Below, piece by piece: positions 4,401 through 22,426 of a DNA stretch of 64,000 nucleotides. How positions within the stretch are numbered: the stretch's first letter is position 1; each line of letters opens with the position of its first letter. Both the position numbers and the translations under genes were made by a program. The stretch is from Streptomyces graminilatus (GTDB taxonomy: Bacteria > Actinomycetota > Actinomycetes > Streptomycetales > Streptomycetaceae). Where the stretch lies: assembly GCF_001418565.1 (NCBI RefSeq), contig NZ_LIQQ01000038.1, positions 1-64,000 of the forward strand, in the 5' to 3' direction. The notes below the pieces were generated by a model, which was not told the origin of the DNA, ran no database searches, and saw only the letters and a program-made list of their open reading frames with translations.

Positions 4401-5875
4401 GCGGGACGTTCGTCGGGATGCCGGCCTTCCCCGAGGCGGCCCACGAGGCGGTGGCCAACCAGACCCTGCGCGGCAATCTGCGCCACGCCACCCACACCAT
4501 CCGCGCGAAACGGGCGGCTGCCGTCGCCGAGATGTCCGACTGGGCCGAACTGCGCGAGGCCGGCAAGCAGATCAAGGACCACACGCTGCGCCACCTCGAC
4601 CGCTATCTCGTCCAGCTGGAGGAGTCGGTCACGGCGGCGGGCGGTGTCGTGCACTGGGCCGCCGATGCCGACGAGGCCAACCGGATCGTCATCGACCTGG
4701 TGCGGATGACGGGCGAGTCGGAGGTCGTCAAGGTCAAGTCGATGGCCACCCAGGAGATCGGGCTCAACGAGGCGCTGGAGGCCGAGGGGATCAGCGCCTT
4801 CGAGACCGACCTCGCCGAGCTGATCGTGCAGTTGGGCAAGGACCGCCCCTCGCACATCCTCGTCCCGGCGATCCACCGCAACCGGGGCGAGATCCGGGAC
4901 ATCTTCGCCCGTGAGATGAGCGAGTGGGGCCGTCCGGCTCCCGAGGGGCTCACCGACACGCCCGCCGAACTGGCCGAGGCGGCACGCCTGCACCTCCGGG
5001 AGAAGTTCCTGCGCGCTAAGGTGGGTGTCTCCGGCGCCAACTTCATGGTCGCCGAGACGGGCACCCTGGTGGTGGTCGAGTCGGAGGGCAACGGGCGGAT
5101 GTGCCTGACGCTGCCCGAGACGCTGATCTCGGTCGTCGGCATCGAGAAGATCGTGCCGACCTGGCAGGACCTGGAGGTCTTCCTCCAGACCCTCCCCCGC
5201 TCCTCGACCGCCGAGCGGATGAACCCGTACACGACGACCTGGACGGGTACGACGGACGGCGACGGCCCGCAGGCCTTCCACCTCGTCCTGATCGACAACG
5301 GCCGCACCGACACCCTCGCCGACGAGGTGGGCCGCCAGGCCCTGCGCTGCATCCGCTGCTCGGCCTGTCTGAACGTCTGCCCGGTGTACGAGCGGGCCGG
5401 CGGTCACGCCTACGGCTCCGTCTATCCCGGACCGATCGGCGCGATCCTCAGCCCGCAGCTCAGGGGCACCGAGAGCGAGATCGACGCCTCGCTCCCGTAC
5501 GCGTCCTCGCTGTGCGGGGCCTGCTACGAGGTCTGTCCGGTCGCCATCGACATCCCCGAGGTGCTGGTGCACCTGCGCGAGCGTGTCGTGGAGGGCGGTC
5601 CGGTCACCCAGGAGGGCAACAAGGTCGTCCTGAAGCCCGCCAAGGGCCACGCCGCCGAGCGGGCCGCGATGCGTGCCGCCCGCTGGGCGTTCAGTCACCC
5701 CGGGGCCCTGCGCACCGGCCAGCGCCTCGCCTCCCGTACCCGCCGCTTCCACCCCCGTACCCTGCCCGGCCCCGGCAAGGCCTGGAGCGCCACCCGTGAT
5801 CTGCCTGCCATGCCGGCTGAGCCGTTCCGCGACTGGTGGCAGCGCACGAACGGCGGAAAGGACACCAGCAAGTGA
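4397..5875 (+). CDS. lutB: L-lactate utilisation iron-sulfur protein LutB
   Basis: This 492-residue protein starts at the ATG inside the ATGA that ends lutA. The N-terminal half is a LUD domain. From about residue 317 come two 4Fe-4S ferredoxin motifs, CIRCSACLNVCPVY and CGACYEVCPV (near 373), typical of LutB/YkgF. It passes electrons from lactate oxidation within the LutABC complex. The C-terminus is basic. Length and domain order match the family, with no sign of decay. Confidence 0.93.
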   Translation: MSGTFVGMPAFPEAAHEAVANQTLRGNLRHATHTIRAKRAAAVAEMSDWAELREAGKQIKDHTLRHLDRYLVQLEESVTAAGGVVHWAADADEANRIVIDLVRMTGESEVVKVKSMATQEIGLNEALEAEGISAFETDLAELIVQLGKDRPSHILVPAIHRNRGEIRDIFAREMSEWGRPAPEGLTDTPAELAEAARLHLREKFLRAKVGVSGANFMVAETGTLVVVESEGNGRMCLTLPETLISVVGIEKIVPTWQDLEVFLQTLPRSSTAERMNPYTTTWTGTTDGDGPQAFHLVLIDNGRTDTLADEVGRQALRCIRCSACLNVCPVYERAGGHAYGSVYPGPIGAILSPQLRGTESEIDASLPYASSLCGACYEVCPVAIDIPEVLVHLRERVVEGGPVTQEGNKVVLKPAKGHAAERAAMRAARWAFSHPGALRTGQRLASRTRRFHPRTLPGPGKAWSATRDLPAMPAEPFRDWWQRTNGGKDTSK

Positions 5876-6528
5876 ACAGCCGCGAACTGATCCTGGACCG
5901 CGTGCGGCGCGCGCTCGCCGACGTACCCCGCGAGGACACGCCGTACGAGGGGGCCGTCGACCGCGACTACGCGCGCGAGCACGGAAACCGGAGCGTCGAG
6001 GAGACGGTCGAACTCCTCGCCGAGAACCTGGCGGACTACCGGGCGCTCGTGCACCGCTGCACCGGCGCCGAACTCCCGGCACTGCTCGCCGGGCTCCTGT
6101 CCGCGCACGGCTCGGCGTCGGTGGTCGTACCGCCGGGGCTGCCGTCGGGCTGGCTGGAGGGTACCGACATCGCCCGCGTCGAGGACAGCGCGAAGAGCAC
6201 CCCTTACGACCTGGACGGCGTCTCGAGCGTCGTCACGGCCTGCGCGGTCGCCGTCGCCGAGACCGGCACCATCGTCCTGGACGGGGGCCCGGACCAGGGG
6301 CGCCGCCGGATCACCCTGGTCCCCGATCACCACATCTGTGTCGTCCGGGTACCGGACCAGGTCGTCTCGTCCGTGCCGCAGGCCCTGGAACTCCTGGACC
6401 CGGCAAGGCCGTTGACCTGGATCTCCGGTCCGTCCGCGACCAGCGACATCGAACTCGACCGGGTCGAGGGGGTGCACGGTCCGCGCACCCTGGAGGTGGT
6501 CCTGGTGAGCGGTGACGACCGGGCGTGA
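5872..6528 (+). CDS. lutC: L-lactate utilisation protein LutC (LUD domain)
   Basis: This 218-residue protein begins at a GTG that overlaps the lutB stop (GTGA). It is a single LUD domain. The conserved core includes SVVTACAVAVAETGTIVLDG and a later PDQVVSSVPQALELL. LutC is the third subunit of the lactate oxidation system. The reading frame extends 12 codons upstream of the GTG, but that extension lies inside lutB and lacks its own ribosome binding site, so the overlapping GTG is preferred. Confidence 0.92.
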   Translation: MNSRELILDRVRRALADVPREDTPYEGAVDRDYAREHGNRSVEETVELLAENLADYRALVHRCTGAELPALLAGLLSAHGSASVVVPPGLPSGWLEGTDIARVEDSAKSTPYDLDGVSSVVTACAVAVAETGTIVLDGGPDQGRRRITLVPDHHICVVRVPDQVVSSVPQALELLDPARPLTWISGPSATSDIELDRVEGVHGPRTLEVVLVSGDDRA

Positions 6529-6538
6529 ACGTGCCCAT

Positions 6539-6566
6539 GGGGCCGGGCGCTGCGGCGCTCGGCCCC
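6539..6566. terminator. Hairpin between convergent lutC and cupin gene
   Basis: GGGGCCGGGCGC and GCGCTCGGCCCC form a 12-bp stem (one G-T pair) with a TGCG loop, 11 bases after the lutC stop and about 45 bases past the end of the oppositely transcribed cupin gene. It could end transcription from both sides. There is no T-tract. Confidence 0.6.
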
Positions 6567-6612
6567 GCCGCGCGGTGCCGCTGGGCGGCTTGCTCCTGGT
6601 GCGGTCCGGCGG

Positions 6613-6978
6613 TCAGGTTCCCGGTGCCTTCGCGTAGTCCTGTGCCATGCCTCCCGCGAAGTCGTGGACGATGACCTGTTCGTCGCCGATGACCCACGCG
6701 TCGTGTCCGGGCGGGCACACGAAGACGTCGCCGGGGCCCACTTCGCCCTCGCCGCCGTCATCCATGCGGAGGCCCATCCGGCCCTGGACGACATAGCCGT
6801 TGTGGTGGATCTGGCAGCTCTTCGTGCCCGCGATGGGCCCGACCGACTCGGACCAGCGCCAGCCCGGTTCGAAGGTTCCCACGGCGAAGTCGAGGCCTGT
6901 CATGTGTACGGCTTCGAGGTGTCCGCGTGGGAAGTCACGCCGTTCGTCCGGCTTCTCGACCGTCTTGATCTCCAGCAT
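6613..6978 (-). CDS. Small cupin-domain protein
   Basis: This 121-residue single-domain cupin contains a GxFEPGWRWSESV strand, CQIHHNGYVVQG (cupin motif 1 with the HH pair) and a PPGHDAW motif 2. Such proteins bind a metal or small ligand; the substrate is unknown. The chosen ATG at 6978 has GGGAGG about ten bases upstream. An upstream ATG at 7059 would add a low-complexity segment without homology-like features. It lies convergent to lutC and in the same direction as the metallo-hydrolase further right. Confidence 0.75.
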   Translation of the reverse strand: MLEIKTVEKPDERRDFPRGHLEAVHMTGLDFAVGTFEPGWRWSESVGPIAGTKSCQIHHNGYVVQGRMGLRMDDGGEGEVGPGDVFVCPPGHDAWVIGDEQVIVHDFAGGMAQDYAKAPGT

Positions 6979-7108
6979 GTCCCATGCCTCCCATCCCCCT
7001 CCATGACTGTCGGCCCCCTGCTCCCCTCCATCGTCCGCCCGTCGAGCCGGGGCCGCCATCCGGGCGATGCCCGGGGTCGGCGTTCTCGTCGGCGTTCGTC
7101 GAAGCCCT

Positions 7109-8173
7109 TCAGAGTTCGAAGGTCACCAGGCCGTCCGGCGCGCCGGGCTCCGGCTTCGTCACCGTGTAGCCGAAGCGGTCCTTGAGGGTGGTGACGTCCC
7201 ATAGCGCCCCGCGGTCCCGGTAGTTGAAGACGATCTCCTTGCGGTCTCCGCCGTTCCGGAGGATCCGGGACATGGCGATCTCGTCGGGGTGGTCGTGCCG
7301 GGCGCCGCTCGTGGAGATCAGATAGCGGTCGCAGTCGAGGAGACCGAGCAGCTCGTTGGAGATGTTGTGGGCGCTGCCGTGATGGGCGACCTTCAGGACG
7401 TCGACATGGAGCCGCCCGCCCGCCGCCTCGGCCCGGGGGCGTATCGACTCGACGAGCCGGCCGGCCTCCCCGTCGCCGGTGAGGATGATCCGCCGGTCCT
7501 CGAACTCGAAGAGCAGCCCGATGCTGGTGACGTTCGTCGCCGAGGTGTCCGTCTTGAACGGCGTCGCGGCGAGCGCCTCCACGTCCACGGCGCCTCCGAA
7601 GTGCTCGAACCCGGGGACGACGGGCGGCTCGTCCGGGTCACGGCCCGGGATCAGCCCATGGGCGGCGCACTCCTTCACCCACACCGGCGCCAGCGCCTCC
7701 AGTTGCGCGCGGTCGGGCGAGAGCACCTCCATGGTGGACCCGTCGTCGAACCACCCGAGCTGCCGTCCGACCTCCACGCCGCGCCCGCCGAAGGCGTCGT
7801 TCCAGGGCACCTTCTGCGCCAGCAGCGCGCTGGTGAGCCGCTCGCCGTCCTGTGCGCCGAACCCCTCGGTGTCGAGCAGGTGGTCGAAGCCGTTGAACCA
7901 CACGTCCCCGAGCTCCACCGGGCGTTGCGAATCCTCCAGCAGGGCGAGCACACCGAGGATGTGGTCCTGGTCGACATGCGTGACGACGAGGAGGTCGACC
8001 AGCCCGAAGGCGCGGGCCGAGAGCGGGGGTGAGCTGAGCTGGCGCATCCCGTCGGGGTCGGCGACCGGTGACTCGCCGCCGGCGAGATGCGGGTACTTGC
8101 CGACTCCGACGACCAGCGCGTGGGTGCGCGGCTGGTCGGCCGCCTCTTCGAGATGGATCACTGAACCGGCCAT
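7109..8173 (-). CDS. MBL-fold metallo-hydrolase with caspase-like N-terminal stub
   Basis: This 354-residue protein is unusual. Residues 1-56 read like the start of a bacterial caspase-like protein (THALVVGVGKYPHLAGG, then MRQLSSPPLSARAF). At about residue 57 it switches to a metallo-beta-lactamase-fold core: VDLLVVTHVDQDHILGVL (the HxxxDH-type metal motif), LTGDGEAG, VLKVAHHGSAHN and ISTSGARHDHP. The usual first MBL strands before the metal motif are missing. Caspase-like and ComEC-type MBL genes are often neighbours, so an in-frame deletion joining the two is likely. The ATG has a good GGAGG six bases upstream. The product may be non-functional or a new chimera. Confidence 0.7.
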   Translation of the reverse strand: MAGSVIHLEEAADQPRTHALVVGVGKYPHLAGGESPVADPDGMRQLSSPPLSARAFGLVDLLVVTHVDQDHILGVLALLEDSQRPVELGDVWFNGFDHLLDTEGFGAQDGERLTSALLAQKVPWNDAFGGRGVEVGRQLGWFDDGSTMEVLSPDRAQLEALAPVWVKECAAHGLIPGRDPDEPPVVPGFEHFGGAVDVEALAATPFKTDTSATNVTSIGLLFEFEDRRIILTGDGEAGRLVESIRPRAEAAGGRLHVDVLKVAHHGSAHNISNELLGLLDCDRYLISTSGARHDHPDEIAMSRILRNGGDRKEIVFNYRDRGALWDVTTLKDRFGYTVTKPEPGAPDGLVTFEL

Positions 8174-8268
8174 GGATCCTCCGGAACACCATCGCTCCCG
8201 AGCATGTCCAATGACAGCGTCTCACCTATTGTATTTCGTCATGCGCGATATGTCCTTGCGCGTTCCGC

Positions 8269-8871
8269 TCAGCCGGCTCGTGGCCGGGCGTGCAGGAGAA
8301 GGTGGTCGGCGAGCAGCTCCAGAGCCGCCCGGCTGTCGGCGGTGTTGCGGTCGACGAGCCAGGTCATGTTGAGGCCGTCGATCATCGAGTGGACGTATCG
8401 CGCGAGCACCGGCACGGGTCGGGTCCACTCGATCCCGGCGTTGTCCGCGGCGAGTTCGAGCAGGCCCGCGAAGGCGCGCAGGAAGATCTCGTACTGCTTC
8501 GCGGCGACCCCCTCGAAACCGGGGTTGCGCAGCGCGTACTGGGTCAGCTCGTAACTGATCTGATGCTCGCCGGGGTTGGCCTCGAAGCCCTTCCAGAACG
8601 CGTGCAGGCTGTCGAGGACGCTGTCACGGATGTCCTTGTGCGGGGCGAAGAGTTCGCGGACCTCGGCGACGTACCGCTCGGTGAGGGTCTCGGTGACGAG
8701 TTCGAGCAGTTGGGCCCTGGACTCGAAGCAGTAGTGGAAGGCCCCGAGGGTCATGTCCGCCTCGGTGACGACCGCGCGGGTGGTGGCCTTGGCCACGCCG
8801 TCACGCGCCATGACCCGGATCGCCGCCTCGAGGAGCTCGGCCCTCCGGTCGCTCGCCGCCATGCGGGGCAC
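8269..8871 (-). CDS. TetR-family transcriptional regulator
   Basis: This 200-residue repressor has an N-terminal helix-turn-helix (RRAELLEAAIRVMARDG, then TTRAVVTEADMTLGAFHYCF) and a ligand-binding C-terminal domain. The GTG at 8871 has AGGAG five bases upstream; an ATG nine bases further in (8862) is the alternative. It is transcribed away from the SMP-30 gene. The 180-bp gap between them holds a 16-bp direct repeat and a 10-bp-arm inverted repeat that are likely operators, so it probably represses itself and the SMP-30 operon. Confidence 0.85.
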   Translation of the reverse strand: MPRMAASDRRAELLEAAIRVMARDGVAKATTRAVVTEADMTLGAFHYCFESRAQLLELVTETLTERYVAEVRELFAPHKDIRDSVLDSLHAFWKGFEANPGEHQISYELTQYALRNPGFEGVAAKQYEIFLRAFAGLLELAADNAGIEWTRPVPVLARYVHSMIDGLNMTWLVDRNTADSRAALELLADHLLLHARPRAG

Positions 8872-8886
8872 GCGTTCTCCTCTCCA

Positions 8887-8921
8887 CACCGGTCTCACCT
8901 GTCAGCACCGGTCTCACCTGT
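8887..8921. repeat. 16-bp direct repeat in the TetR promoter
   Basis: CACCGGTCTCACCTGT occurs at 8887-8902 and 8906-8921 with a 19-bp period, immediately upstream of the TetR start. It may be a tandem operator or a local duplication. Confidence 0.6.
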
Positions 8922-8957
8922 GGGTTCGCCGGTCAGGATAACCAATCGGCCGGAACA

Positions 8958-8994
8958 GAAGTAAGTCGCTTGTCCAGGACGCTTGACTTACTTC
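8958..8994. promoter_or_regulatory. Inverted repeat between TetR and SMP-30 genes
   Basis: GAAGTAAGTC (8958-8967) and GACTTACTTC (8985-8994) are exact reverse complements separated by 17 bases. They sit in the divergent promoter region, 60-96 bases before the SMP-30 start. The layout suits an operator for the adjacent TetR protein. Confidence 0.55.
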
Positions 8995-9053
8995 GCGGGT
9001 CTGCGCCACCGTAGCGTGGACAGAACGGGCACGAGCAGCGTCTGGAGGCAGGG

Positions 9054-10034
9054 GTGCGACCGAGGGCCACAGTCGTCCTGGACGGATTCGGCGTCCTGGA
9101 GTCACTGCGCTGGCACGAGGGTTCCCTGTGGTTCTGCGACCTCGCCCACGGGACGGTGCACCGCTGGGACACCCGGGGAGAGCCCGAGACGGTGCTGGAG
9201 GTCCCCGGCCGGGCGGGCGGTCTGGGCTGGCTGCCCGACGGGCGGATGCTGGTCGTCTCGATGGACGGGCGCTGTGTGTACCGGCGCGAGCCGGACGGCT
9301 CCCTCGTCGTGCACGCCGACCTCAAGGACATCGCGGGCGGTCCCGTCAACGACATGTTCGTCGACCGGCTGGGCCGCGCCTACGTGGGCAACTTCGGCTT
9401 CGACTACCACGGCTTCGTCCGCCGACGCCCCAACTCCATGCTCTACGCCCCGCCGGGACCGCCCGCCACACCCCTCGCCTGTCTCTCCCCCGAGGGTGAA
9501 CTGCTGGGCCTGAGCGAGCCGTTGGTGTTCCCGAACGGCCTGTTCCCGGTCGAGGTCGACGGGGAGCCGGCGCTGCTGGTCGCCGAGACCCTGGCGATGC
9601 GCCTCACCGCCCTTCCCGTACTGCCCGACGGGCGCCTCGGCCCGCCCCGGCCGTGGGCCCCGCTGATCCCGTCCGCGCTGTGGAGTTCCCTCAACCACCA
9701 CGGGCCGCTCGGCCGTGTCACCCGGCGGGTCTCCGCCCTGCTCGACCGCCCTGCGATCGCCGAACGCTCCGCGAGCCCCATCGCCCCCGACGGCATCGCA
9801 CCGGGCCGGGACGGCACGGCGTGGGTCGCCAACGCGCTGCGCGGCGAATGTGTCCGGGTGGGGCCGGGCGGTGTGATCCTGGACCGCGTCGCCACCAGCC
9901 GACGCACCCTGAGCTGCCTGGTCGCCGGGCCGGGCGGCAACACCCTGTACGCGGCCACCACACCGACCGACGACCCGGTGGCGGCGGCCCGGCTGAACGG
10001 GTCGCGGCTGGAGGCGTACGTACTGCCGTCCTGA
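9054..10034 (+). CDS. SMP-30/gluconolactonase/LRE-family protein
   Basis: This 326-residue six-bladed beta-propeller of the SMP-30 family has repeats such as ESLRWHEGSLWFCDL, PVNDMFVDRLGRAYVGNFGF and PDGIAPGRDGTAWVANALRG, with the Glu, Asn and Asp metal ligands expected in such lactonases. It probably opens a sugar or aliphatic lactone. The GTG start is preceded by GGAGG. It is divergent from the TetR gene. The downstream SDR/aldolase/SDR genes follow after a 164-base gap and may belong to the same pathway. Confidence 0.82.
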   Translation: MRPRATVVLDGFGVLESLRWHEGSLWFCDLAHGTVHRWDTRGEPETVLEVPGRAGGLGWLPDGRMLVVSMDGRCVYRREPDGSLVVHADLKDIAGGPVNDMFVDRLGRAYVGNFGFDYHGFVRRRPNSMLYAPPGPPATPLACLSPEGELLGLSEPLVFPNGLFPVEVDGEPALLVAETLAMRLTALPVLPDGRLGPPRPWAPLIPSALWSSLNHHGPLGRVTRRVSALLDRPAIAERSASPIAPDGIAPGRDGTAWVANALRGECVRVGPGGVILDRVATSRRTLSCLVAGPGGNTLYAATTPTDDPVAAARLNGSRLEAYVLPS

Positions 10035-14780: not shown

Positions 14781-15745
14781 TGAGCAACCTTGACCGTGCG
14801 CCCGTCCCCAGCGTCTGTGGCGGCCGTGGATTCGTCGTCGCCGAACCCGTGCGCGAGCTGCTGAGTCCCCGGCGCGTGAAGCTCGGGGAGAGCACCGAGG
14901 TACGCCGCCTGCTGCCGAACCTCGGCCGGCGCATGATCGGCGCGTGGGCCTTCGTCGACCACTACGGGCCCGACGACATCGCCGACGAACCCGGCATGCA
15001 GGTGCCGCCGCACCCCCACATGGGCCTCCAGACGGTGAGCTGGCTGCACGAGGGCGAGGTGCTGCACCGCGACTCGACCGGCAGCCTCCAGACGATCCGC
15101 CCGCGTGAACTGGGCCTCATGACCTCCGGCCGGGCGATCAGCCATTCGGAGGAGAGTCCCCGGTCCCACGCGCGGTTCCTGCACGGCGCGCAGCTCTGGG
15201 TCGCGCTCCCGGACAGCCACCGCCACACCGACCCGCACTTCGAACACCACGCCGACCTGCCCAGGGTCACGGCGCCCGGTGTGACGGCGACCGTGATCCT
15301 GGGCGCCCTCGACGGCGCGGCCTCGCCCGGCACGACGTACACCCCGATCGTCGGCGCCGACCTGACCCTCGCCGCCGACGCGGACGTACGCCTGCCGCTC
15401 GTGCCCGACTTCGAGTACGGGGTACTGGCGATGTCCGGGGAAGTGCACGTCGACGGGGTGCCGGTACTGCCGGGCTCGATGCTCTACCTCGGCTGCGGCC
15501 GCACCGAACTCCCCCTGCGCGCCGCGTCCGACGCGAGCGTGATGCTCCTGGGCGGCGAGCCGTTCGAGGAGGAGCTGATCATGTGGTGGAACTTCGTGGG
15601 GCGTACGCAGGAGGAGATCGCGCAGGCGCGGGAGGACTGGATGGGCGGCTCGCGATTTGGGGAAGTGAAGGGTTACGAGGGAGCGCCTCTAGCTGCCCCC
15701 GAGCTGCCGCCAACACCCTTGAAGCCGCGCGGCCGAGTGCGATGA
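14780..15745 (+). CDS. Pirin-family bicupin protein
   Basis: This 321-residue pirin has the N-terminal cupin metal motif PHPHMGLQTVSWLHEGEVLHRDS (shortened core: HPHMGLQTV) and the later GRAISHSEESP with the conserved His/Glu ligands. Pirins bind iron or another metal and act as quercetinase-like dioxygenases or cofactors. The second cupin domain spans about residues 190-300. The ATG appears leaderless. Its last codons touch the start of IS debris, but the frame is intact and of usual length. Confidence 0.87.
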   Translation: MSNLDRAPVPSVCGGRGFVVAEPVRELLSPRRVKLGESTEVRRLLPNLGRRMIGAWAFVDHYGPDDIADEPGMQVPPHPHMGLQTVSWLHEGEVLHRDSTGSLQTIRPRELGLMTSGRAISHSEESPRSHARFLHGAQLWVALPDSHRHTDPHFEHHADLPRVTAPGVTATVILGALDGAASPGTTYTPIVGADLTLAADADVRLPLVPDFEYGVLAMSGEVHVDGVPVLPGSMLYLGCGRTELPLRAASDASVMLLGGEPFEEELIMWWNFVGRTQEEIAQAREDWMGGSRFGEVKGYEGAPLAAPELPPTPLKPRGRVR

Positions 15746-15872
15746 ACTGGCGTCTTTCAACACGCCAGCCATGTCACCGGGCGCGGCGAAACACACCCCG
15801 CCCGGTTCACTCAGACCACGTGAGCAAACCACGTTCACACCCCTCGTTCCGGACCGCCCAGGCCTGCCTCAC

Positions 15873-16133
15873 CCATCAGATCCTCGTTCTGGCCGACCGC
15901 GCGTACCAGGGCGCCGGCACCACCGTCCGCACCCCCTACTACGGCCACCGTGAACTCCCGGAGCACTATCAGCGCTACAACCGCGACCATGCCCGTCTCC
16001 GCGCTCCGGGCGAACGCGCCTTCGCCCGCCTCAAGTCCTGGAGAGTGCTGCGAGGAGCACGCCGCTCAACAACCGCATCAGACGCCTGGTCGCCGCCGTG
16101 CACACCCTCTTGACCTGCCAATACTCAGGATGA
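15873..16133 (+). pseudogene. IS5-family transposase C-terminal remnant
   Basis: The translation contains QILVLADRAYQGAGTTVRTP, then RLRAPGERAFARLKSWRVLR, the DDE-domain end of IS5-like elements. Near 16060 the frame breaks; the matching tail (NNRIRRLVAAVHTLLTC) continues in another frame to a TGA at 16131. The front of the gene is absent; 15746-15872 holds nothing else recognisable. No terminal repeats or target duplication were found. Confidence 0.7.
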
Positions 16134-16144
16134 AAGAGGTTCAC

Positions 16145-16453
16145 TCACCCGATGCCGAGCATCGGAATGGCGAGACTGATAGCAGTGAGCAGCGGCACTC
16201 CTACTTCTCCTGCTGTGGCTGCGACTCGGCGAAGTCTGTCCAGAGTGCTCGGGCCCGGTCGGCGCTGCCTGATTTCTTCCAGCGATTCGTCGATCTCTTG
16301 GCGCTCTGCAGGCGACACGTGATCCCGCAGAGTCAGTGCGGTGCGGATGAGATGCCGGATTTCCGAACCGGACTGGATATTATTCACGACTTTGCCGGTG
16401 GCATTGTCTCCCGTAATCTTAATATTGTCGCCGATGTGTACTTTGTCGCTCAT
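16145..16453 (-). CDS. Small protein with N-terminal GDN motif and C-terminal membrane helix (unknown function)
   Basis: This 102-residue protein is not recognised. It begins SDKVHIGDNIKITGDNATG, a run of short beta-prone Gly-Asp-Asn units, continues with a charged helical middle (VSPAERQEIDESLEEIRQRR) and ends in a hydrophobic stretch VGVPLLTAISLAIPMLGIG that could insert in the membrane. Its start overlaps the stop of the upstream membrane protein by four bases, so the two are coupled. The pair is visibly less GC-rich than its surroundings and lies among IS remnants, which suggests transfer. The same H-GDNI-I motif closes the partner protein. Confidence 0.65.
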   Translation of the reverse strand: MSDKVHIGDNIKITGDNATGKVVNNIQSGSEIRHLIRTALTLRDHVSPAERQEIDESLEEIRQRRPGPSTLDRLRRVAATAGEVGVPLLTAISLAIPMLGIG

Positions 16454-16929
16454 TTCATCACCCTGATCGCCGTGCCGTTCGGGCCGTTGATGCTGATGTT
16501 GTCACCGAGGTGAAACTTCTCGATGGTGATTTGGAAGTCCGCCAGGGGGTTATTGATCGCTGATGTGATTTCCAGAGAGATCTTGCGCAGCTGTGCGAGA
16601 TTCCTGGATGCAATCGCGACGCCAGATAGTCCGGCGCTTACTATGACAAGGATTCTCACGGTAGACCTGACGTACAGGCGCCGGGCGACCTGACAGATCC
16701 CGATGGGCAACAGAATCGCTGCGACGGCCGTGCAGATTGTTGTTGGGAGATCCACGGTGTACGCGTGTTCCCTCACAAATTCTGGCGGGCCCCCCATCAC
16801 GGCAGACGATCGCGTATTTCTTGTCATGGTGAAGAATATCAAGCCGGCTACAGCAGACAGGCCAGCTGCTAGCACTTGAGGAAACTTGAATTCAGGCTCA
16901 ACTATCTGAGTGCTTGAAATGTTATGCAT
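16450..16929 (-). CDS. Predicted three-helix membrane protein with C-terminal GDN motif (unknown function)
   Basis: From the ATG at 16929 the product has 159 residues with three hydrophobic segments: QVLAAGLSAVAGLIFF (about 16-32), TICTAVAAILLPIGICQ (about 60-78) and ILVIVSAGLSGVAIA (about 90-105). A soluble tail ends FHLGDNISINGPNGTAIRV, closely matching the start of the downstream protein. The start is uncertain: no strong ribosome binding site precedes 16929, and an upstream ATG at 17013 would add 28 residues. Base composition is much lower in GC than in neighbouring genes. I recognise no family; a paired membrane or conflict system is possible. Confidence 0.6.
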   Translation of the reverse strand: MHNISSTQIVEPEFKFPQVLAAGLSAVAGLIFFTMTRNTRSSAVMGGPPEFVREHAYTVDLPTTICTAVAAILLPIGICQVARRLYVRSTVRILVIVSAGLSGVAIASRNLAQLRKISLEITSAINNPLADFQITIEKFHLGDNISINGPNGTAIRVMK

Positions 16930-17290
16930 CGGGAAAGAGCTGTCGCCGACCGACAGGATTCTCTGGCTAATTTTGATGTTGACGCTGCGGCTCAACTTCC
17001 CCCACGCCCCCATGCACCCTGAAATTTTTAACAACGAGACGTGGCTGAATGTTTGCAGAAATCGAAGGCGTCGACAATCCCCGCGTTGAGATTTCCTGGG
17101 GCGCATGAGCGCACGATTGGACGTCTGTGCGCGCCCCCGAGTGGCTTCCCTGACGGCAGGGATTCGGCGTAGTTGCGTGACGCCTGGTTCGTGGCGGACC
17201 GTCAGCCCAGCGGCTGTGTTCTCGGAACGTGACAGGCACGACTTCCAAGATCATGAAGTTCTCTACGCCCCGTGATCCAAGTGGAAGACC
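16930..17290. other. Intergenic stretch, lower GC
   Basis: This stretch holds the upstream region of the small membrane-protein pair and probably the degraded left end of the following ISAs1-like element. I see no convincing gene, hairpin or terminal repeat. Confidence 0.5.
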
Positions 17291-17513
17291 GTGCCGGCCG
17301 ACGCAATATCTCTGATCCCGCCCGCCTTTGACCAACTGCGCGAGAATCCGCAGGTCGACCTGAGGAGGCCCCGGGTCTGCTGGAACGGCTGGCCGAGGTG
17401 CCAAACCCGCGTGACCCACGCGGGGTGCGCCACCGCCTGGCCGTCGTGCTCGCTCTCACCGCGTGAGCGGTGCCGGCCGGTGCAACCTCGCTGCTGGCGG
17501 TCGGCGAATGGAT
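17291..17513 (+). pseudogene. ISAs1-family transposase N-terminal remnant
   Basis: The first frame reads VPADAISLIPPAFDQLRE, then after a shift near 17360 another frame gives PGLLERLAEVPNPRDPRGVR and RLAVVLALTA, a stop, and AGATSLLAVGEWI. This is the DDE_Tnp_1-associated N-terminal domain of ISAs1 transposases. It carries a frameshift and an in-frame TGA and stops abruptly at a P450 fragment. Confidence 0.72.
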
Positions 17514-17915
17514 CGTTGGACGAGCTGCTTCGTTTCGACTCGCCCGTCAGCACGGCCACCTTCCGGTACACCACGGAAGCCGTCACGCTCGGCGGCACCG
17601 ATATCCCGGCCGGTGTCCCTGTGGTGGTCGCTCTTGGAGCGGCCAACCGCGATCCGGAGCGGTTCCCGTCACCGGACCAGCTCAACCTGCATGGGGATGC
17701 TGCCGGCCATCTCGGCTTCGGCCACGGTATCCACCGCTGTGTCGGCGCCCCCCCTGGCCAAGGCCGAAGCCGACATCGCCCTGCGCGCGGTCCTGGCCCG
17801 CTTCCCTCAGTTCCGGCTTGCCGTCCCACCTGATCAACTGCAGTGGCGGCGCACCCGCCTGGTGCGCGGACTGACCGCGCTTCCACTCCTTGTCCAGCGT
17901 CCCGGCGCACTCTAA
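17513..17915 (+). pseudogene. Cytochrome P450 C-terminal remnant
   Basis: The sequence reads LDELLRFDSPVSTATFRYTT, VPVVVALGAANRDPERFPSP and the heme-thiolate loop FGHGIHRCVG with its cysteine, then shifts frame near 17750 and continues LAKAEADIALRAVLARFPQF to a TAA stop. Only the part after the ExxR helix remains, roughly the last 130 residues of a 400-residue bacterial P450. With no N-terminus and a frameshift in the heme region it cannot work. It joins ISAs1 debris directly on its left. Confidence 0.75.
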
Positions 17916-17916
17916 G

Positions 17917-18107
17917 CAGCAGGACGCCGCCGCGACCTGGAAGAAGACGTTCGGACACCACCCGCCGATGGGGTTCGTCGACCACGGCCGTGGCGGGTCC
18001 GGAGAGGCGGTCGTGGACCTGCTGCGGCCCGGCAACGCGGGCTCCAACACCGTCGCGGACCACATCGAGGCCACCAAGCCGGCCCTGGCCCGGTTGCCGT
18101 GTGGCCG
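17917..18107 (+). pseudogene. IS1380-family transposase internal remnant
   Basis: The frame reads AAATWKKTFGHHPPMGFVDH, then GEAVVDLLRPGNAGSNTVAD and HIEATKPALARLP, the characteristic DDE-domain segment of IS1380 transposases. It has neither start nor end, and abuts the P450 remnant on its left and the TetR gene region on its right. Confidence 0.7.
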
Positions 18108-18194: not shown

Positions 18195-18803
18195 TCAGCC
18201 CTCGTCGGCCCGGTCGCCGTTCGCCTGCCCGCGGAGTAGGTCGATGACCGCCAGGACCGTTCTCGTGCCGGTCTCCGAGGTCCAGGTCTGCGGATCCTCC
18301 AGGACGGACAGCCAGTAGCCGCGAAGGAGGAGGTGCAGTACGTCCGCGGACAGCTCGGCGTCCGGCAGGCCGGCCTCGACGGCGGAGTCGTGTATCTCCT
18401 TGCGGTGTTTGCGCGACATCGCACGGAGATCCCGTTCGACGGCTGTTTCCTCGCCGTCGGCCGAGGCCTCGCCGACGACCTCCATCAACAGGCGCCGGAG
18501 GACCACGTCGTCCCGCTCGGTCGTGCACATCCACTGGGCGAACGACCTGAGCCTCTCCGGTCCGGCGAGCCCGTCGAGCGCCTCGGTCTGATCGCGTTCC
18601 CACTCCTCCTCGGCGCAGCGGATGGCGTTGAGCATCAGGGCCGAGCGGCTGGAGATGTAGTTGGTGACCATGGTCGTCGAGCCGCCGAGCCGGGCGGCGA
18701 CCGCTCGGATGGTGACAGAGCGGACGCCTGATTCCCTGGCCACCTGCAGTGTCGCCGCCGCGATCTCGTTTCGGCGCCGCACCTCGTCGACCTCTATCGG
18801 CAT
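18195..18803 (-). CDS. TetR-family regulator of module I
   Basis: This 202-residue repressor has an N-terminal helix-turn-helix (RRNEIAAATLQVARESGVRS, with AVAARLGGSTTMVTNYISSR). The C-terminal half should bind an inducer. The ATG is preceded by AAGGACTGAGG. It is divergent from the CocE-type hydrolase gene; between them a nearly perfect 26-bp palindrome lies at 18860-18885. The local arrangement predicts repression of itself and of the hydrolase, and perhaps the transporter, with relief by the imported compound. Confidence 0.86.
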   Translation of the reverse strand: MPIEVDEVRRRNEIAAATLQVARESGVRSVTIRAVAARLGGSTTMVTNYISSRSALMLNAIRCAEEEWERDQTEALDGLAGPERLRSFAQWMCTTERDDVVLRRLLMEVVGEASADGEETAVERDLRAMSRKHRKEIHDSAVEAGLPDAELSADVLHLLLRGYWLSVLEDPQTWTSETGTRTVLAVIDLLRGQANGDRADEG

Positions 18804-18917: not shown

Positions 18918-20651
18918 ATGCCTCCCTTCACCTATCAGCGGATCATCGCCGGCCCCGTTCCCGCGCAGGCCCGGCAGTACATGGTCCGCATGCGCGACGG
19001 GGTACGGCTGGCAACCGACGTCTATCTGCCGGAGCCGCCGCCGGAGGTCCCCGGCGGCGACCCGGCGGCGCCGACGTATCCGACCGTGCTGGTCCGGCTG
19101 CCGTACGACAAGAACAGCCGCTACGTGTTCTTCGACCGGATCGCCGCCCGCTTCACCGCCCGGGGTTACGCGATGGTGGTGCAGGACGTGCGTGGCAAGT
19201 TCCGCTCCGGCGGCCGGACTCTGCCGTTCCTGTCGGAGGCCGACGACGGCTACGACTCCATCGAGTGGACCACCCACCAGCCCTGGTCCAACGGGCGTGT
19301 GGGCATGTTCGGGGACTCGTACTACGGCTTCACACAGTGGGCCGCCGTGTCGTCGCAGCACCCGGCCCTGCGTGCCATCGTGCCGCGTCTGACGTGCGCG
19401 AACTTCAACGACCTTCTGCAACACGACCCGCGGGGTGCGGCCCAGACCGGCCGGCCGGTCTGGGTGGAGGGAGCGGAGTACTACGCCCACCACTGGGTGG
19501 AGAACGACACGTACGAGTTCGAGGTCGACCGCTCCGTACGCCCGATGATCGAACAGTACGAGCAGGCGTTCCGTGCCCTCGGTACCCGCTCCGAGTGGTT
19601 CGACGTGATCGCCCCGAACTACGCGAACCTCCTTCCCGCCGCCCTCGGACGGCACCCGTACGACGCCAGGCCCGTGCCCGTGCTGCACTGCGTGGGGTGG
19701 TTCGACAACGTCCGTGTCCCCCACATGCGGGACTACGAGGCACTGGCCTCACGACCCGGCTGGGACGCGGTGCAGTACCTCTGGGCGGCTTCGATCGACC
19801 ACGAGAACTACACCCTTGACGGCGCACCGGTCACCGCCCCGGAGAACGACCACGCCCTCGACGACACAGCTCTCGACCGCATGCTGAACGACTACACCGG
19901 TCCCGCTCTCGATTTCTTCGACGTGTTCCTCAAGGAGACCCGTCCCGTGTCCTCGCTGCGGAAAGTCAGCTGGGAGCTCGGGCACGCCGGCCGTCGTACG
20001 TCGGACGTGTGGCCCCCTGCCGACAGCACCGTGCGGACCCTGTGGCTCGGCGACCCCGCCCGGTCGGCGGATCCCCTGCCGGGTGCGCCGCTGACCCACG
20101 TGTCCCCGCCCGAGGAGGGATCCGTGGAGTGGGCGTACGACCCGGACGCCCTGGTAGCCTCCGCCGTAAACAACAGCTTCGCGTATCTGCAGGCCTACCC
20201 GGACCTCGCGGAGACCGCCGCCCGCAGCGATGTCCTCGCCTTCACCGGACCGGTGCTGTCCGAGCCACTGGACCTCGCGGGCCCGGTCGGTCTGGACCTG
20301 TACGTCACCAGCAGCGCCCCGGTCTTCGACGTGTTCGCGCAGCTCCTCGACCTGAGCCCGGACGGGCAGGCCCGTCTGGTCGTCCGGGGCGAGGTCGAGG
20401 TCGTCCGGGAAACGGCCCCGGAGCAGATCCACGTCGAACTCGGCCACACCGGTTACCGGCTGCGCGCCGGACACCGGCTCGCACTGATCATCACCAGCAG
20501 TGACTACCCGCTCTTCCTGCCCGCCTCGGGCACGGAGGAGAACCGCTGGACCACCGCCACCCCCAAATCCAGCACCCAGACCCTCGGCACCGGAGGCGCC
20601 CGGCCGTCCCGCCTGACGGTCACGGTGCTCCCGTCAGCGACCAGCGGCTGA
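18918..20651 (+). CDS. CocE/NonD-family hydrolase of module I
   Basis: This 577-residue serine hydrolase of the CocE/NonD (X-Pro dipeptidyl-peptidase S15) family has the nucleophile S134 in MFGDSYYG, an early MRDGVRLATDVYLP strand and VLVRLPYDKN, then a C-terminal jelly-roll domain (about 350-577) with LYVTSSAPVFDVFAQL and ending GHRLALIITSSDYP. Members cleave acyl esters or amides such as cocaine or peptides; no signal peptide is seen. The ATG at 18918 has AAAGG upstream. An 11-bp direct repeat (GGCTGACCACC) spans its stop codon. It is close kin of the module II hydrolase at 50437 and precedes an ABC importer. Confidence 0.85.
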   Translation: MPPFTYQRIIAGPVPAQARQYMVRMRDGVRLATDVYLPEPPPEVPGGDPAAPTYPTVLVRLPYDKNSRYVFFDRIAARFTARGYAMVVQDVRGKFRSGGRTLPFLSEADDGYDSIEWTTHQPWSNGRVGMFGDSYYGFTQWAAVSSQHPALRAIVPRLTCANFNDLLQHDPRGAAQTGRPVWVEGAEYYAHHWVENDTYEFEVDRSVRPMIEQYEQAFRALGTRSEWFDVIAPNYANLLPAALGRHPYDARPVPVLHCVGWFDNVRVPHMRDYEALASRPGWDAVQYLWAASIDHENYTLDGAPVTAPENDHALDDTALDRMLNDYTGPALDFFDVFLKETRPVSSLRKVSWELGHAGRRTSDVWPPADSTVRTLWLGDPARSADPLPGAPLTHVSPPEEGSVEWAYDPDALVASAVNNSFAYLQAYPDLAETAARSDVLAFTGPVLSEPLDLAGPVGLDLYVTSSAPVFDVFAQLLDLSPDGQARLVVRGEVEVVRETAPEQIHVELGHTGYRLRAGHRLALIITSSDYPLFLPASGTEENRWTTATPKSSTQTLGTGGARPSRLTVTVLPSATSG

Positions 20652-20767
20652 CCACCGGCTGACCACCGGCCGGCCGTCCCGCCGACCACACGAAGTTCCT
20701 CTGCCGCCCGCACGGCAGTGAAAGGCCCCCCATAACGCCCCTGTAACTTCCACCCAGGAACAGTCAC

Positions 20768-22426
20768 ATGCGAGCTTCCAGAATCACCGCGCCCGGTGCC
20801 GCCCTGTGTATCGGTCTGCTCACCGTCTCCGCCTGCTCCTCCGGCGCCACCGGGTCGGCCGGCGGTGCGTCCGGCGCCTTCAAGCTCACCACCAGGACGC
20901 CTGCCGCCACCGGGTCCCTCGACGAGGTGACCTGGAACCTGCCCCTGGGTGAACCGACCACGCTCGACCCCGCCAAGGTAGGCGACTACTCCCCGAACAC
21001 GGTGGAGGCCAACCTGTGCGATCCCCTGCTGCGTCTGCGGCCGGACTACTCCATCGCACCGGGCCTCGCCTCGTCCTGGAAGAAGCCGGACGACCAGACG
21101 CTCGTGCTGGAGCTGCGTGAAGACGTGAAGTTCTGGAACGGCGACCCGATGACAGCCAAGGACGTCGTCGCCAGCCTGACCCGGCAGAGCGCTCCGGCCA
21201 CCCAGGCCGTCAACGCCTCCGTACTGGCAAGCGTGAAGTCCGTGACCGCGACCGGCGACCACCAGGTGACCATACGCTTCAAGCAGCCCGACGAACTGTT
21301 CCTGAAGTCCCTGGTCAATGGATTCGGAGGGGTCAGCGAAGCCTCGTACATGAAGAAGGCCGGTGCCTCCTACGGCACGGCCAAGGGCGGACTCATGTGC
21401 AGCGGGCCGTTCAAGCTCGAAAACTGGAAGTCGGGTGACTCCATCACCGCGGTCCGCAACGACCAGTACTGGGACGCCTCGCTCAGGCCGAAGGTCAAAA
21501 AGCTGACGTTCAAGTTCGTCACCGACTCCAACACGCTGACCAGCGCCCTGCTGTCGGGCCAGATCGACGGCAGTTACGAGATCCCCTCCAGCGTCGCCAG
21601 GGCCCTGCGCTCCTCCGGCGCCGGAAAGCTCTACTACGGTCCATCGGCGCAGACGAACTTCATCGCCCCCACCACTCCCTCCTCCCCGCTCGCCGACAGC
21701 CGCGTCGCCAAGGCACTCTCCCTGGTCCTGGACCAGGACGCGCTGATCAAGAACGTCTACGACGGCGCGGCCGGGAAACTGAAGACCGTGATCCCGCCGC
21801 TGGTGTGGAAGAACGGCGAGGCCGCCGCCGTCTACGCCCAGGGTTACGGGCGGCTCCCCGCCACCCCTGGGACGGACGAGGCCAAGGCCAAGCAGCTCAT
21901 CGCGCAGGCCGCGCCGAAGAAGCGCTCCGTCATCGTGGCCATGCCGGCGGGTGACCAGCAGTCCCTGCAGATCCTGACCTTCCTCCAGGCCGCGGCCAAG
22001 ACCATCGGGCTGGACGTGGTCATCAAGCAGCTCCAGCCGACCCAGATGTCGGACGTGTTCTACGACGCCGGCCTCCGCAAGGGCCTGGACGGCGTCATAG
22101 GTCTCGGGTACGTCGAGGTACCGGACCCGCTGTCGTACGTCCCGCTGTTCACCGCGCCGGACGGGCTCTTCAACTGGACCGGCTACAAGAACGCCGAGGT
22201 CACGTCCCTGCTGACCCGGGCACAGGCGGCGACGGACCCCGAAAAGTCGGCCGCCCTGTTCAATCAGGCTCAGGAGCTGTACACGAAGGACCTGGCCATC
22301 GTGCCCATCGCGGCGCCCTACGAGCGCATGTTCATGAACAAGCGGCTCAGCGGCGCGCCCTCGTCCTTCGCCTACATCAACATGCCGTGGGCGGCCTACC
22401 TCGGCGGCACCGGAGGAGCCTCGTGA
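20768..22426 (+). CDS. ABC importer substrate-binding lipoprotein (family 5), module I
   Basis: This 552-residue extracellular protein has a lipoprotein signal (basic start, hydrophobic core ALCIGLLTVSAC with the lipobox cysteine at about residue 22). It then matches solute-binding family 5 (oligopeptide/dipeptide/nickel type), with EPTTLDPAKVGDYSPN near the start and PGLASSWKKPDDQTL. The ATG follows CCAGGAACAG. It begins a five-gene transport operon joined by four-base overlaps. Family 5 proteins also bind opines, sugars and other solutes, so a peptide substrate is not assured. Confidence 0.88.
   Translation: MRASRITAPGAALCIGLLTVSACSSGATGSAGGASGAFKLTTRTPAATGSLDEVTWNLPLGEPTTLDPAKVGDYSPNTVEANLCDPLLRLRPDYSIAPGLASSWKKPDDQTLVLELREDVKFWNGDPMTAKDVVASLTRQSAPATQAVNASVLASVKSVTATGDHQVTIRFKQPDELFLKSLVNGFGGVSEASYMKKAGASYGTAKGGLMCSGPFKLENWKSGDSITAVRNDQYWDASLRPKVKKLTFKFVTDSNTLTSALLSGQIDGSYEIPSSVARALRSSGAGKLYYGPSAQTNFIAPTTPSSPLADSRVAKALSLVLDQDALIKNVYDGAAGKLKTVIPPLVWKNGEAAAVYAQGYGRLPATPGTDEAKAKQLIAQAAPKKRSVIVAMPAGDQQSLQILTFLQAAAKTIGLDVVIKQLQPTQMSDVFYDAGLRKGLDGVIGLGYVEVPDPLSYVPLFTAPDGLFNWTGYKNAEVTSLLTRAQAATDPEKSAALFNQAQELYTKDLAIVPIAAPYERMFMNKRLSGAPSSFAYINMPWAAYLGGTGGAS

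Follow-up and report, generated by a model that had tools for sequence, protein, structure and literature searches.

The window, a stretch of 64,000 nucleotides from Streptomyces graminilatus, carries on its minus strand two small open frames that share the four bases ATGA (16450–16453), in which the stop codon of the one and the start codon of the other lie. The upstream gene (16450–17013) encodes a membrane protein of the DUF6232 family with a short C-terminal motif, EKFHLGDNISINGPNGT (residues 165–181; 16471–16521). The downstream gene (16145–16453) encodes a partner of 102 amino acids, in which a similar motif, DKVHIGDNIKITGDNAT (residues 3–19; 16397–16447), precedes a three-helix domain (residues 30–99; 16157–16366) of a DUF5955-like family. 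The GC content of the region (16145–17013) is 55.6%, against 69.8% for the window. Among 55 nonredundant pairs of this kind (see below), the window's included, upstream genes have a median GC content of 65.9% and downstream genes one of 71.9%; no upstream gene is lower in GC than the window's. The four-base overlap and the low GC content had both been pointed out in an earlier reading of the letters alone (the sequence-only reading), and both hold.

That reading had the upstream gene begin at 16929. Read from there, the frame matched DUF6232 with an E-value of 0.0019 and only over positions 17–117 of the profile; the longer frame matched positions 1–117 of 117 (E 5.7e-9; 36.9 bits vs the curated cut-off of 27.4). 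Since the full profile needs a frame that begins further upstream, 16929 is probably not the start, which is more likely the TTG at 16995 (181 aa) or the ATG at 17013 (187 aa). A start at the TTG would bring the protein into register, by eye, with the N-terminus of its nearest relative (MSGTVTIQV in L006). The protein itself was assigned to Pfam PF19744 (DUF6232) over the whole profile and above the cut-off (E 3.7e-9). In its AlphaFold2 model (pLDDT 78.5), four strands (9–38) are followed by a hairpin of two helices (45–70 and 89–116), two strands (120–136), a helix (139–154), and low-confidence strands within the motif. The hairpin (residues 45–116 in the 187-aa numbering; 16666–16881) is of the membrane type according to both model and hydropathy. 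Three helices had been proposed for this protein from the letters, but only these two long ones are of the membrane type, and at residue 117, where hydropathy peaks a third time, the model has a strand. Hydropathy predicts two segments in 51 of the 55 upstream proteins, three in two (the window's among them), and one in another two.

Chains with PH or PTB domains headed both structure lists obtained for the upstream protein (VIA and Foldseek). The best VIA match had a Z of 8.5 (77 residues, rmsd 2.5), a value described as common in the note of the tool, and the best Foldseek E-value was 0.13, none being significant. That a membrane hairpin interrupts a PH-like domain may nevertheless be a fair reading of the model. 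No match named BELL was found for this protein in the Pfam and NCBIfam lists, which may lack a BELL model, nor did the Pfam lists hold an NTPase match for either protein of the pair. The window's upstream protein is divergent (47% identity with L006, 15–28% with the other 31 of the 32 relatives aligned), and its tail, like that of L006, lacks the N-x-G usually found near the end.

The partner was modelled as a disordered motif followed by helices at residues 30–43, 48–62, and 68–99, the last of which is long and hydrophobic (best 19-residue hydropathy 1.93; values of at least 1.6 were found in 40 of 55 partners). Foldseek returned no significant structural match to this model. Sixteen of 33 aligned partners matched Pfam PF19380 (DUF5955) at E-values up to 1 (best 1.1e-6), and the window's partner was not among them. 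Strong DUF5955 matches were present in at least 10 of 346 genomes drawn from the phylum, all of the window's genus; a DUF5955 gene that lacks the motif lies elsewhere in the window's own genome (L132, contig C639). The PADLOC profile PDC-M14B matched seven of the 33 partners weakly (best E 0.0022) and was rejected as an identity for the helical partners; followed across genomes, it gave 2 of 199. At one other locus (L128:1091–2457), which may be related to the PDC-M14B candidates (E 5.7e-5), two adjoining proteins each carry a GGxxQxGxGNVQxN-like stretch ahead of a helical-looking region. At another (L154), the helical region behind the partner's motif (2561–2938) matched EAD1 weakly, below the cut-off (E 0.0018), a hint in the sequence that DUF5955 and EAD1 may be related.

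Within the window pair, the two motifs are identical at 10 of 17 positions, and BLASTP aligned the two proteins with each other at an E-value of 2e-5. The observed motif score of 58 was reached in none of 20,000 shuffles of the protein ends and in two of 20,000 shuffles of the whole proteins. The sequence-only reading had been right in ascribing a GDN motif to both proteins. The identical residues are encoded by the same codon in 2 of 10 cases (7.0 expected). When a motif profile that included the window's sequences was run against the organism's own genome (9.6 Mb), only the two window motifs were recovered at E ≤ 1, the next match having an E-value of 1.3. A profile built without them recovered the partner's motif as its sole match at E ≤ 10 (E 0.0014) and missed the tail of the DUF6232 protein. 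Neither profile pointed to an NLR elsewhere in this genome that has the motif. A weak match in the organism's own genome (L093) was judged on reading to be a wrong-frame artefact. Compared with the rest of the protein, motif stretches are rich in asparagine (12% vs 2%) and glycine (24% vs 8%) and poor in proline (1% vs 6%), and also in glutamate.

Within the window's genus, relatives of a protein of the window pair (P0002; E ≤ 1e-3) were present in at least 33 of 295 genomes, the organism's own among them. In a draw across the phylum, DUF6232 exceeded the cut-off in at least 3 of 396 genomes (again including the window's). Contigs of named genomes were scanned with a pattern derived from motif-bearing DUF6232 members, which yielded 46 loci (L046–L091), mostly from Streptomyces but also from Kitasatospora, Streptacidiphilus, Actinophytocola, Sinosporangium, and one actinomycete MAG. 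By profile, 42 of these have a separate partner, one has a fused partner (L049), and three have none; read by eye, one of the three has an apparently frame-broken partner (L083), and the other two (L089 and L090) have other motif-bearing products. A further set (L006–L034) had been found through the partner and is uninformative as to how often DUF6232 has one, and nine loci (L002–L005, L035, L036, and L039–L041) were excluded by hand from the partner scan. From a total of 81 DUF6232 matches, 69 pairs could be compared, the remainder being fused (two), partial (six, at four loci), ended before the motif (L088), or partnerless by profile (three). Reduction at 90% identity left 56 pairs, and 55 after one with a misplaced partner start (L091) had been dropped. 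The genes overlap by four bases in 39 of the 55, as in the window, and by one base in eight; two pairs on plasmids are annotated with the four-base overlap.

In these 55 pairs, the tail of the sensor protein scored 78.4 on average against the head of its own partner and 43.7 against mismatched partners. The own partner ranked first in 19 pairs, with a median rank of 4, close relatives competing for the place. With one representative for each of 13 clusters (formed at 50% identity of the remaining protein), the means were 69.0 and 39.5, the own partner took first place in eight of them, and no shuffle out of 20,000 did as well. The score was 45 or more in 51 of the 55 motif pairs (lowest 31). 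None of 179 other adjacent same-strand gene pairs from the 46 loci (tails of 45 and heads of 60 residues) exceeded 38. The motif pairs of two loci, YIGQVGDNFKVFGSGNVGKVG with FRIGQVGDNFQVYGTHNIGKIG (L050) and NYNFGGNQINQSGKAKSGDI with NYNFGGNQVNQSGRAKSGNI (L058), serve as examples. With the shuffles, the BLASTP result, and these control pairs, chance similarity of the motifs can be dismissed. The same codon was used at 490 of 716 identical motif residues (68% vs 60% expected). Recent gene conversion between the motif copies was rejected as the sole cause, agreement of the codons being only somewhat above expectation; as codons differ at identical residues, it is mainly the protein sequence that is kept, and selection acts on the protein. 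When one motif subtype was profiled over the 295 genomes of the genus, 16 matched, 15 of them with exactly two matches ∼100 bases apart and the remaining one with a single weak match. The relatives therefore occur together, and their motif is conserved and co-varies, as the partnership proposed from the letters implied.

The domain also exists without the motif. In an actinobacterium of another family (G491), one of the three genomes from the phylum draw, three DUF6232 members exceed the Pfam cut-off (L037, L042, and L044) and all lack the motif tail. DUF6232 proteins thus need not carry the motif, and there the domain functions without it; these members possibly represent an ancestral or an independent use of the domain. 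Two of the three sit in neighbouring frames. There are also natural fusions. At L034 and L049, which are alike over the portion displayed, sensor and partner form one continuous chain with just one copy of the motif at the junction, and at a further locus (L019) a truncated DUF6232 start is joined directly to motif and partner. A crude gene call with clustering revealed no clear third component, neighbours recurring in at most 14 of the 46 loci. Eighteen plasmid records held relatives, 17 of them from S. clavuligerus; viral contigs, scanned for one short pattern, and phages yielded none. Cargo of phages or plasmids was therefore discarded as a general rule.

What follows the motif is exchangeable. 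In S. fulvoviolaceus (L090), a single frame of 980 aa (5407–8349) contains DUF6232 (E 1.5e-18), two copies of the motif, and a C-terminal CHAT domain (PF12770; E 1.8e-17); the next frame there (8362–9540) resembles a lipase-like alpha/beta hydrolase by weak Pfam matches. In Sinosporangium (L089), the downstream product has no helical domain; it bears the motif twice, along with two hydrophobic segments.

The sensor can differ as well. The window's own genome harbors a second motif-coupled pair (L141/L142; contig C194, about 20576–22267), the motifs of which are NQGLIQQGGTSIIGNQ and NNGLVINGGTHYVGNQ. Its sensor is unrelated to DUF6232 and consists of a region of 387 aa behind N-terminal hydrophobic segments, whereas its partner is of the DUF5955 type. 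For this region, no significant Pfam match was obtained with the relative that was submitted (L140). Relatives of this sensor (E ≤ 1e-10) occur in at least 81 of 199 genomes, and the 30 best-scoring loci were read, the next genes being picked by coding bias and not by motif. In all 30, the motif of the sensor's tail recurred at the N-terminus of the next gene (scores 43–112), and in 29 of the 30 sensor frames, read back to the preceding stop without fixing the starts, hydrophobic segments lie ahead of the aligned region. When the loci were grouped into seven clusters, the own partner came first in all seven (3 of 20,000 shuffles did as well, about the least possible with seven); with 26 clusters, it came first in nine (0 of 20,000 shuffles). 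Three partners of this second family, each of 245–246 aa with the motif at the N-terminus (L168:2574–3308, L170:737–1474, and L171:734–1468), carry a TIR domain of the CAP12/Pycsar type (PF10137; E 2.9e-26, 3.7e-25, and 1.1e-25, respectively), and that of L168 also matches the PADLOC candidate PDC-S35 (E 1.3e-14).

As judged from these sequences, what stays constant is the motif, which the membrane sensor carries at its C-terminus and the partner at its N-terminus; those partners that can be recognized are effector domains. Because relatives have CHAT, a product with two hydrophobic segments, or, together with the other membrane sensor, TIR behind the motif, the partner side is read as the output; for the window pair, the assignment of input and output would follow by analogy with these relatives. 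From the same CHAT and TIR relatives, the architecture appears to belong with effectors of the immune or cell-death type.

Remnants of insertion sequences lie close to the pair on both sides. A remnant that is transposase-like by eye (15849–16143), and which occurs unannotated at three places in one Streptomyces plasmid record, ends no more than two bases from the stop codon of the partner gene. The length of the partner nevertheless fits that of its nearest relative (101 aa). On the other side lie an ISAs1-type transposase remnant (17155–17515) and a match to IS1380 (17892–18099), both identified by sequence matches, and between them a stretch (17516–17915) that looks by eye like the C-terminal fragment of a cytochrome P450. 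Plasmid records matching the region number 14, all from Streptomyces. The statement that everything around the pair is decayed insertion sequence material needs correcting: such material was seen only within about 2 kb, and long open frames lie beyond it, no more than about 1.5 kb from the pair on each side (one of 324 aa that ends at 15745, the other of 202 aa at 18195–18803). A foreign origin of the window pair is plausible, given the nearby remnants and the lowest upstream-gene GC content of the 55 pairs. The window copy may have arrived recently or may be degenerating, but neither frame is interrupted and the two motifs still match.

The latter possibility can be taken further: the pair would be a mobile passenger that is decaying and has no function in this strain, and the similar motifs would be the relic of a once working pair. 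The insertion sequence remnants on both sides would fit, as would the divergence of the upstream protein, its tail without the usual N-x-G, and the failure of the leave-out profile to find that tail. Against this stand two frames that are open and near full length, an intact overlap, and a motif kept although just two of its ten identical residues are encoded alike, and we consider a mere relic distinctly improbable. A toxin–antitoxin pair, in which one of the two products (the DUF6232 membrane protein or the helical one) is a toxin that its counterpart neutralizes through the motif, seems more doubtful still. The genes are small and overlapping, some are on plasmids, insertion sequences surround them here, and one of the 33 partners matches PF07704 weakly (E 0.0079), an Rv0623-like, antitoxin-related family. 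Apart from this one match, no antitoxin family is among the Pfam matches listed, and neutralization leaves unexplained why the same motif is present on both proteins and why TIR or CHAT can replace the partner; these replacements make such a pair less likely.

Chief among the rivals is an ordinary interface formed by strand pairing. The motif would then be a structured contact within a heterodimer, such as a short beta hairpin or a beta-solenoid contact, and the two proteins would form a constitutive complex or an envelope-stress module. Matched and co-varying motifs are expected from any interface of two similar strands, and the membrane segments that hydropathy predicts in both sensor families would suit a module of the envelope. 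An ordinary contact, however, does not need the same sequence on both partners, and pairing of like with like points to homotypic stacking. The tandem motifs of L089 and L090, the enrichment of asparagine and glycine, the depletion of proline, and the replacement by CHAT and TIR are better in line with signalling motifs, which renders this interface unlikely in our judgment, if not to the degree of the two preceding explanations.

The matched end motifs, the adjacent genes, the lineage-specific motif families, and the effectors of the immune type together led us to read the pattern as an amyloid signalling pair. We thus favor, with modest confidence, a reading that involves no NLR, in which one gene encodes a membrane sensor, the other an effector, and a homotypic, probably amyloid-like motif couples the two. 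What the sequences show is that the genes are adjacent, that the motifs match and co-vary, that effectors are replaced, and that the sensors have membrane segments; amyloid formation and templating, the trigger, toxicity, the outcome, and a role in defence are what we infer. The suggestion that the partners are joined by a motif akin to those of amyloid signalling is borne out in part: the homologues are paired, the motif is conserved and co-varies, and relatives carry CHAT and TIR. Several observations count against our reading: there is no NLR; the published BASS3 and archaeal peptides do not outscore their shuffles (see below); the motif is modelled as disordered or as low-confidence strands; some DUF6232 members are motif-free; the window's partner matches neither DUF5955 nor any structure significantly; the leave-out profile recovers the partner side alone; viral contigs and phages yielded no relative; and PADLOC matches of the helical partners are weak. 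In this signalling pair, the DUF6232 protein would be the membrane-anchored input, with a cytosolic, perhaps PH-like domain into which the membrane hairpin is inserted. A stimulus, perhaps membrane damage or the entry of a phage, would cause it to cluster, so that its C-terminal GDN motifs could assemble. Once assembled, the motif would template its N-terminal counterpart on the partner, in a homotypic, probably amyloid-like manner, upon which the partner's domain of three helices, the last of them hydrophobic, would become active at the membrane; the likely result would be growth arrest or cell death. Divergence of the motif together with that of the partner in each lineage would keep parallel pairs insulated from one another.

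Consisting of two short proteins and one matched motif, these pairs are direct and small candidates for signalling amyloids free of NLRs, and natural variants carry effectors of a recognizable domain type. The co-varying motif sets (13 and 7 clusters) also provide cognate and noncognate pairs with which the specificity of templating could be addressed within about 20 residues. A 2021 review of amyloid signalling (PMC7889193) raises the question whether bacteria have signalling amyloids in NLR-independent pathways. It is conceivable, although we hold this more tentatively than the reading of the pair itself and stop short of calling it probable, that such a branch exists, in which at least two unrelated membrane sensor families template effectors, outputs (DUF5955-like, TIR, CHAT, or the product with two hydrophobic segments) are plugged in, and diversified motifs prevent cross-firing. 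The literature searched on bacterial amyloid signalling contained no NLR-free membrane pairs, which may figure in the motif lists of Dyrka et al. (2020), and the literature searched contained no mention of DUF6232, DUF5955, or PDC-M14.

Among named families, the upstream gene belongs to DUF6232 and 16 of the 33 aligned partners match DUF5955, both names without a function and both existing in motif-free forms. EAD (effector-associated domain) conflict systems of multicellular bacteria, as described in PMC7159879 and PMC8195603, resemble the pairs in that homotypic adaptors tie a core to interchangeable effectors (TIR, caspase-like), and the L154 partner with its weak, below-cut-off EAD1 match adds to the likeness. 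They differ in that the coupling element here is a motif of ∼20 residues, whereas EADs are helical domains, and in that no NTPase was recognized in the pair. With the fungal HET-S, HELLP, and sigma systems and the mammalian RHIM, the pairs share two partners with matched prion-like motifs, control of cell death (in our reading), and tandem copies of the motif, the latter in L089 and L090. Here, however, there is no NLR or kinase, and most members are not similar to the sigma peptide; the published Nectria sigma peptide did exceed its best-scoring shuffle against individual members (53 vs 49 and 55 vs 47). The fungal GDQN pattern (PMC12261475) fits none of the members, and the published archaeal and BASS3 peptides (one of the latter was compared) scored no higher with these motifs than the maximum of their shuffles.

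The closest counterparts are the BASS pairs (Dyrka et al., 2020), which, according to PMC7889193, PMC8086366, and PMC9815663, have so far been described as joining a BELL protein to an NLR. As there, the C-terminal motif of one product matches the N-terminal motif of its neighbour, the genes are adjacent or overlapping, and cognate motifs co-vary. Likewise, motif families are many, the hosts are mainly filamentous bacteria (actinobacteria and cyanobacteria), and CHAT and TIR domains recur, both of which are also reported with BASS motifs (PMC7889193). In contrast to what these sources describe, no NLR (NB-ARC or NACHT) partner was found here: the protein with the N-terminal motif consists of 102 aa of helices (or of TIR in the second family), and the one with the C-terminal motif has membrane segments, so that the polarity appears reversed, with the motif of the effector at its N-terminus. 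Because an NLR is missing, the input resembles a membrane protein, and the effector bears its motif at the N-terminus, we regard the pairs as a variant of the known signalling pairs.
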